A DNA stretch of 64,000 nucleotides from Aquiflexum gelatinilyticum (lineage in GTDB: Bacteria > Bacteroidota > Bacteroidia > Cytophagales > Cyclobacteriaceae): contig NZ_JANSUY010000012.1 of the NCBI RefSeq assembly GCF_024741135.1, positions 1 through 64,000 on the forward strand, written 5' to 3'. A model generated the notes under the pieces. That model saw only the letters and a list, made by a program, of their open reading frames with translations. It did no database searches and was not told where the DNA came from. Positions 52,351 to 53,608 of this stretch are shown in pieces (positions within the stretch are counted from its first letter, which is position 1; each line of letters opens with the position of its first letter). Made by a program: the position numbers and the translations under genes.

Positions 52351-52902
52351 TCAATAAGAAACACCCTCTATATGGGCGTAAATTTCCTCAAAACTGAAAA
52401 TCCTTTCTTTGCTTGAATTTGTAAAATCAAGCAATTCCGGCAAAGGCAAGCCACCACTTTTGCCGATAGCAGGCCATTTTGGAGGAGTTGAAATCCAATT
52501 GCCATGATCATCCTTCATATGTCCCCGATCAGAAATAAAAGAGTGGATAAAATCCCCAGATGTGATGGCTTTGAATCCTGGAAGGTCTTTGCTTTCTTGA
52601 GAATGATCAGTCGGAAAAGTAGCTTCCAAATAACTTTTTAACGAGGAAGGAAATTCGAGGGTTGAATCAAAATCATAGATCAATTGGGATTCATGGTTAG
52701 AAGCCAACAAAACCACATGGTAATCCCACCAAACCACTTCGTCGCCGTTGGGGGATTTTTGGAATCTGAAGGAACAATTTCTGCTGCTGTTGGAGATGAT
52801 CAACACCTTTTTGGTAAATCCATCAAGTTCAGGATTCTGACATAGGTGCCAGATGTTTTCTTCGCAAAAATTTTCGGAGTACTTGAAGGTTTTGATTTTC
52901 AT
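52351..52902 (-). CDS. Protein N-terminal glutamine amidohydrolase, NTAQ1-like
   Basis: 183 residues from ATG 52902. It carries the whole NTAQ1 signature: NFCEENIWHLC with catalytic Cys13, WWDYHVVLL with His62, and IYDFDS with the Asp of the triad near 77. The C-terminal FISDRGHMKDDHGNW and PPKWPAI also match the animal and plant proteins. NTAQ1 deamidates N-terminal Gln to Glu, the first step of the Arg/N-degron pathway in eukaryotes. Bacterial homologues exist but have no settled role. No amino-acyl transferase (aat, bpt) gene is in the window. Cytosolic, no signal. Confidence 0.9.
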   Translation of the reverse strand: MKIKTFKYSENFCEENIWHLCQNPELDGFTKKVLIISNSSRNCSFRFQKSPNGDEVVWWDYHVVLLASNHESQLIYDFDSTLEFPSSLKSYLEATFPTDHSQESKDLPGFKAITSGDFIHSFISDRGHMKDDHGNWISTPPKWPAIGKSGGLPLPELLDFTNSSKERIFSFEEIYAHIEGVSY

Positions 52903-53017
52903 TGGCTGCCGCAAAAGTAACACAGACTTTGGCAATTGGCAGCATCTCCAAATTTATAATTTGGAAGAAAGAAATTGAATTGGAAATAGGAACAAAGAGA
53001 ATTCAGTCCAAATCGGG

Positions 53018-53608
53018 TTAAATCAGGTTCTCGGAGAGCACAAGGTCTTCTTTTGTGCGTTCCCTACAGATTTCTATTAATTGATAAATATCAGAGTCGA
53101 GGTAATCCGATTTTTTGATCTGAATGTCATTTTCATTCCTGAAGGAAAAACGCAGACCTCCCGATGAATCTATATGGTCAATCTTGGTCAAACCTGAAAT
53201 GTTGCGGTGAAACACGATGACACCCCGGAATTTCAATTGATAGCCGTCCAGGACTAAAGTGATTGGATTTAGATTTTTGACCAAAAGAAATAAAAAACAC
53301 TCATACAAAACGATCAACCAAAAGAGCACCAATGTCCATTTAGGTATTGGAACTCCCACAAAAAACAATAGGGTACCTACCACAGCAAGGGCTATAGTCC
53401 ATGTTTTGAAACTCTTCTTTTGCCTGCGCAAAAACAATTCCCCACCTACTCCCCTTGTCACCAATTTGTAATGCTCCCTTCCGTAAAAGGCAAACATCAA
53501 AATCAGACAAAAAGAGATAAGCCAATGATGATGACGAAGGTCCAAAACCAGAATCAAAACAATGGAAAGTATCAAAAAAGCTGTAACAATGATTTGTCTT
53601 TTTCTCAT
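53018..53608 (-). CDS. Membrane protein of unknown function
   Basis: 196 residues with four membrane helices in two hairpins (about 7-45 and 70-108), then a cytoplasmic strand-rich domain of about 80 residues (ITLVLDGYQLKFRGVIVFHRNISGLTKIDHI, GLRFSFRNENDIQI). The tail domain recalls the PH-like domains at 37985-38966, but the similarity is only by pattern. It begins MRKRQIIVTAF with positive residues, so the N-terminus is cytoplasmic. Standing alone; 115 bp from the NTAQ1-like gene upstream on the same strand. Confidence 0.65.
   Translation of the reverse strand: MRKRQIIVTAFLILSIVLILVLDLRHHHWLISFCLILMFAFYGREHYKLVTRGVGGELFLRRQKKSFKTWTIALAVVGTLLFFVGVPIPKWTLVLFWLIVLYECFLFLLVKNLNPITLVLDGYQLKFRGVIVFHRNISGLTKIDHIDSSGGLRFSFRNENDIQIKKSDYLDSDIYQLIEICRERTKEDLVLSENLI

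Follow-up and report, generated by a model that had tools for sequence, protein, structure and literature searches.

An NTAQ1-type N-terminal glutamine amidohydrolase in Aquiflexum gelatinilyticum and other Cyclobacteriaceae, found with ClpS and without the known N-degron transferases

The gene at 52351-52902 on the minus strand of the window (the whole 64,000-nucleotide stretch of Aquiflexum gelatinilyticum DNA analysed here) is a new member of an already known enzyme family, the NTAQ family of N-terminal glutamine amidohydrolases, as was rightly recognised in the initial annotation. The deamidation of N-terminal Gln is known as the step that opens a degradation route in eukaryotes, and no paper describing a bacterial NTAQ1 was found in a literature search whose reach left out most subscription journals. 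The unusual part is the company that the gene keeps: every NTAQ1-bearing Cyclobacteriaceae genome tested also encodes ClpS, and none encodes the transferases by which NTAQ1 and ClpS could be linked. We consider it likely (probability about 0.7) that the protein is a genuine cytosolic NTAQ enzyme, laterally acquired and, in this host, not working within the known N-degron chain. As it stands, NTAQ1 in Cyclobacteriaceae is not yet a new system.

The reading frame is intact and encodes 183 aa, with an ATG at 52902 and a stop at 52351; the mechanical ORF begins at a TTG at 52935, and the relatives start at the ATG equivalent to 52902. PF09764 (Nt_Gln_amidase, cut-off of 27 bits) matches residues 8-163 of the protein with an E value of 4e-41, none of the NCBIfam models matches it, and the genome of A. 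gelatinilyticum carries one NTAQ1 copy. Human NTAQ1 (4w79, 3c9q) was found with an E value of 1.8e-24 in a single-sequence search. The AlphaFold2 model (mean pLDDT of 89.8, pTM of 0.87) aligned with 4w79 over 180 residues with an rmsd of 2.6, and Foldseek assigned it to NTAQ1 with a probability of 1.00. The next unrelated fold was SseI, with a Z score of 7, and protein-glutaminase reached a Z of about 6, far below the NTAQ1 match. The initial annotation had called the protein a full bacterial homologue of NTAQ1 and had proposed a PF09764 search as a check; this is borne out by the 141 bits scored with PF09764, by the full-length match of human NTAQ1 to a 36-sequence profile (E value of about 2e-55), and by the Z of 21.8 between the model and 4w79. 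The likeness to human, animal, and plant NTAQ1 (WDYHV1, C8orf32; PF09764; 4w79) covers the whole fold, the Cys-His-Asp triad, the substrate strand, the SDRxHM motif, and the proline pair, with 37% identity to human NTAQ1 over the aligned core. The difference lies in the host, a bacterium without the ubiquitin route and, in this case, also without a known transferase for the product. By fold, the sole viral relative is a predicted NTAQ1 homologue of Clandestinovirus (BFVD A0A8F8KLD3; Foldseek E value of 1.5e-11).

In the sequence alignment, Cys13, His62, and Asp77 correspond to Cys28, His81, and Asp97 of human NTAQ1, the catalytic triad of its crystal structure (PMC4214742). The initial annotation had noted Cys13, His62, and a following Asp, leaving the choice between Asp77 and Asp79 open, and the alignment assigns the catalytic position to Asp77. 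The codons of the predicted nucleophile Cys13 (52864..52866), the predicted catalytic base His62 (52717..52719), and the predicted third triad residue Asp77 (52672..52674) are on the minus strand, as are all those given below, and superposition on the human structure suggests the triad geometry in the model. In human NTAQ1, the N-terminus of the substrate runs along residues 76-80, with contacts made by Trp78, Asp79, and Tyr80 (PMC4214742). The corresponding strand in the alignment, from human Val76 to Tyr80, is Val57-Trp58-Trp59-Asp60-Tyr61 (52720..52734), which is predicted to bind the substrate and in which Trp59, Asp60, and Tyr61 occupy the places of the three residues that hold the N-terminus. 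The C-terminal blocks pointed out at the outset are also kept, SDRxHM and two prolines being common to the bacterial and human sequences: SDRGHMK (residues 124-130; 52513..52533) contains Arg126, His128, and Met129, which are invariant in 83 sequences, and PPKWP (residues 140-144; 52471..52485) contains the invariant Pro141 as well as Pro140, present in 76 of the 83. Cys13 is invariant in the same set, a conservation that is, like that of His62, partly a search artefact, since both residues are inside the two peptide patterns ([NC][YF]CEEN[IV]W and VxWDYHV[VI][LM]) with which the sequences were gathered. The conservation of Arg126, His128, Met129, and Pro141 and that of Asp77, also invariant, is no such artefact, because these residues are outside both patterns. 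The equivalent of Asp60, which in human NTAQ1 (Asp79) contacts the N-terminus of the substrate, is Asn in 9 of the 83 sequences; this was seen in the inspected Algoriphagus copies (L037-L043, L058), where the replacement could change the specificity.

The framing of the gene as a lone bacterial copy of a eukaryotic enzyme proved too narrow, although sequence, profile, and fold comparison all upheld that it is a full NTAQ1 homologue whose triad is intact. When 84,980 species genomes were scanned, 121 bacterial relatives turned up; they come from about ten phyla and are patchily distributed in all of them. PF09764 was found in 2 of 395 genomes sampled from the class and, above the cut-off, in 28 of 390 genomes of Cyclobacteriaceae. 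Besides this family, the relatives belong to Desulfocapsaceae, Gammaproteobacteria, Obscuribacterales/Melainabacteria, Myxococcota, Acidobacteriota, Planctomycetota, Lentisphaeria, Hydrogenedentota, and Spirochaetota, and one is labelled Alphaproteobacteria. Many of the genomes are metagenome bins, possibly misbinned, but isolates also carry the gene (Desulfopila sp. IMCC35008, Desulfosediminicola flagellatus, Psychromonas ossibalaenae, and Parendozoicomonas callyspongiae). The presence of relatives in many phyla, isolates included, thus speaks for a patchy bacterial family and not for a lone eukaryote-like gene. The copies from Bacteroidota form one clade (support of 99/89), which contains all those from Cyclobacteriaceae; the Desulfopila/Desulfosediminicola pair of Desulfocapsaceae is its sister (100/98). 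The direction of transfer is not given by this tree, because it is unrooted and represents the eukaryotes by one human sequence. The simplest reading is that the Cyclobacteriaceae copies would go back to one gene, probably gained laterally, which has since been moved or lost many times. In one genome (G540), the full copy is accompanied, at a distance of about 700 bases, by a second PF09764 match (contig C11:367095-367232), which is partial (profile positions 122-166) and perhaps the remnant of a duplication.

In three Cognataquiflexum genomes and in Aquiflexum sp. TKW24L, NTAQ1 is syntenic together with its neighbours, among them guaA, a phosphotriesterase-like gene, a gene for a VOC-domain protein, and a dihydroorotase-like gene. 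Against four close copies from Cognataquiflexum/Aquiflexum, Ka/Ks was 0.10-0.13 with Ks near saturation, and a ratio near 0.1 against congeners indicates that the gene is under selection. That the locus might be contamination or a nonfunctional relic, as its patchy presence could be taken to suggest, is hardly credible: the same flanking genes accompany it in the four close genomes, the frame is intact, and the genome has a contamination of 0.06%, so that synteny, Ka/Ks, and the intact frame together argue against contamination or decay. Directly upstream of NTAQ1, at 53018-53608 (minus strand), is the gene of a 196-aa protein, apparently with membrane segments, which is 86-89% conserved in close relatives and has no match in Pfam, NCBIfam, or PHROGs. 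The neighbourhoods of NTAQ1 differ among the genera of Cyclobacteriaceae. In the 80 loci kept from the 121 relatives, no neighbour gene is common across genera, and no clpS, aat, or bpt was recognised beside NTAQ1; we therefore rejected an operon logic. One locus (L089), in a genome without a PF04377 match, gave one match to the automatically picked ORF of another locus (L150). An origin in a mobile element, phage, or defence system was likewise rejected, since no relative was found in phage or plasmid records or viral contigs, and the lack of matches in PHROGs and PADLOC was counted against it as well.

In the bacterial N-end rule, Aat (acting on Arg/Lys) and Bpt (acting on Asp/Glu) operate together with ClpS, and the Bpt of Vibrio vulnificus makes N-terminal Asp and Glu destabilising (PMC3692480). 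The V. vulnificus pathway (Aat, Bpt, ClpS/ClpAP) resembles the present case in that the substrate of Bpt, N-terminal Glu, is the product of NTAQ1 and in that ClpS is present, but it has been described without an N-terminal amidase, a word absent from PMC3692480, and the genome of the window has no Bpt or Aat. It had been noted before that no aat or bpt gene is nearby, and this can be widened to the whole A. gelatinilyticum genome, which is 99.99% complete and in which neither PF04377 (Bpt/ATE) nor PF03588 (Aat) has a match. The two profiles are also without a match in every other NTAQ1-bearing genome of Cyclobacteriaceae tested (0 of 28, the window genome and 27 relatives), whereas in 18 genomes of the family lacking NTAQ1, PF04377 occurs in three and Aat in one. 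Outside Bacteroidota, 48 of 50 NTAQ1-bearing genomes have at least one of the transferases (PF04377 in 37, Aat in 46, both in 35), including the Desulfocapsaceae genomes of the two nearest outside relatives (L056 and L059), each with both Aat and Bpt/ATE. This contrast between Cyclobacteriaceae and other hosts gave a p value of 4e-19 with relatedness not accounted for. It is sharp but is in itself no proof that NTAQ1 and Bpt cooperate, because Bpt/ATE is common in the background of Pseudomonadota: PF04377 was present in 20 of 26 NTAQ1-bearing genomes, assigned to the phylum by hand from record titles, and in 271 of 398 sampled ones (p of 0.39), and an enrichment of Bpt there was rejected as not significant.

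ClpS is encoded in the A. gelatinilyticum genome (PF02617, E value of 2.1e-17, contig C33) and in all Cyclobacteriaceae examined, both those with NTAQ1 (28/28) and those without (18/18). Asn34, Asp35, and His66 are kept in 46 of 46 ClpS sequences; following the E. coli literature, and in E. coli numbering, we take these residues to hold the alpha-amino group. At the pocket positions examined, no difference among the 46 sequences goes consistently with the presence or absence of NTAQ1, and there is no sign of a retuning for Glu; an altered ClpS specificity in NTAQ1-bearing genomes was rejected on this ground. With a pocket nearly identical in the two groups and no known transferase, nothing ties ClpS to NTAQ1 here. 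ClpS is universal in these 46 genomes, whereas Aat occurs in 1 and PF04377 in 3, and ClpS in Cyclobacteriaceae thus seems to function with neither of the known transferases.

By analogy with the human enzyme, the biochemical step is very probably the deamidation of N-terminal Gln to Glu. The protein would be a papain-like cysteine amidohydrolase of the cytosol: the free N-terminus of a protein or peptide would be bound along the Val57-Tyr61 strand, and Cys13, His62, and Asp77 would convert the N-terminal Gln to Glu, presumably via a Cys13 thioester, with the release of ammonia. A drift to another amidase substrate, either internal Gln of proteins, as for the protein-glutaminase of Chryseobacterium and Flavobacterium, or a small molecule, is improbable. 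Protein-glutaminase, a pro-enzyme acting on internal Gln, shares the broad papain-like fold and the Gln-to-Glu chemistry, and the distant fold likeness to it and to SseI could speak for such a drift. However, the full-length match of fold and sequence to NTAQ1 is far stronger, protein-glutaminase gave no match in PDB sequence searches, the N-terminus-binding residues of human NTAQ1 are conserved, and neither a signal peptide or pro-region nor an N-terminal hydrophobic stretch was found by eye in the 183 aa. Nor was any signal-like N-terminal stretch seen in the Cyclobacteriaceae copies when their sequences were judged by eye. The Q-rule of Bacteroidetes also concerns N-terminal Gln in Bacteroidota: products of signal peptidase I with N-terminal Gln are cyclised by glutaminyl cyclase at the periplasmic face (PMC5837995). 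Because this chemistry is on the periplasmic face and no export signal is seen in NTAQ1, the enzyme should not meet these N-termini, and we rejected the Q-rule as a direct partner.

The known bacterial N-degron chain is closed to N-terminal Glu, the product of NTAQ1, in A. gelatinilyticum, since its genome lacks both Bpt and Aat. It is unlikely that NTAQ1 feeds ClpS/ClpAP here nonetheless, either with the help of a transferase that has escaped recognition and places a primary destabilising residue on N-terminal Glu or because N-terminal Glu is recognised directly. The presence of ClpS in every genome tested, with the residues for the alpha-amino group kept, the precedent of V. vulnificus Bpt (PMC3692480), and the frequency of Bpt/ATE in NTAQ1-bearing genomes elsewhere would favour such a link, but the window genome and its 27 NTAQ1-bearing relatives are without PF04377 and PF03588, the ClpS pocket shows no consistent difference, and no clpS, aat, or bpt was recognised next to NTAQ1 in the loci compared. 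We favour housekeeping of Gln peptides because, without a transferase, the Glu produced is no known degron. N-terminal Gln otherwise cyclises to pyroglutamate, and the most likely role of the enzyme, which we put forward tentatively, might be to clear N-terminal Gln from cytosolic peptides and fragments before pyroglutamate forms, with ordinary peptidases finishing the work. In the loci compared, no conserved neighbour gene points to this role.

For most other hosts, in which a known transferase is present, no unknown enzyme needs to be assumed, and a route from Gln to Glu to Leu-Glu to ClpS is possible. There NTAQ1 may form a tertiary layer of the Leu N-degron pathway, the Cyclobacteriaceae gene being a transferred piece put to an unrelated use; this is a serious possibility, somewhat short of even odds, which concerns the other hosts and is compatible with our explanation for the window. 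The transferases in 48 of the 50 genomes outside Bacteroidota, and both of them in the two Desulfocapsaceae, are consistent with it, but Bpt/ATE is frequent in Pseudomonadota in any case, and gene linkage was absent from the 80 loci. Extended to about ten phyla, the proposal would be that many bacteria have a three-tier N-degron pathway, a hierarchy so far regarded as eukaryotic, in which NTAQ turns N-terminal Gln into a tertiary destabilising residue ahead of Bpt and ClpS, and that Cyclobacteriaceae retain an uncoupled amidase with another, transferase-free use, which we offer as a tentative generalisation. A conserved and selected bacterial NTAQ family would mean either an extra tier in bacterial N-degron pathways, of which we found no report, or a function that has nothing to do with degradation. 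Cyclobacteriaceae, which have the amidase and ClpS and no known transferase, provide a natural test of the latter, and Bpt-bearing hosts provide one of the former. Among the other hosts, two Spirochaetota genomes (G804 and G816, with the loci L086 and L099) carry two PF03588 matches each and no PF04377; the second match is far weaker (E value of about 1e-24) and might represent a divergent Aat paralogue acting on other N-termini.
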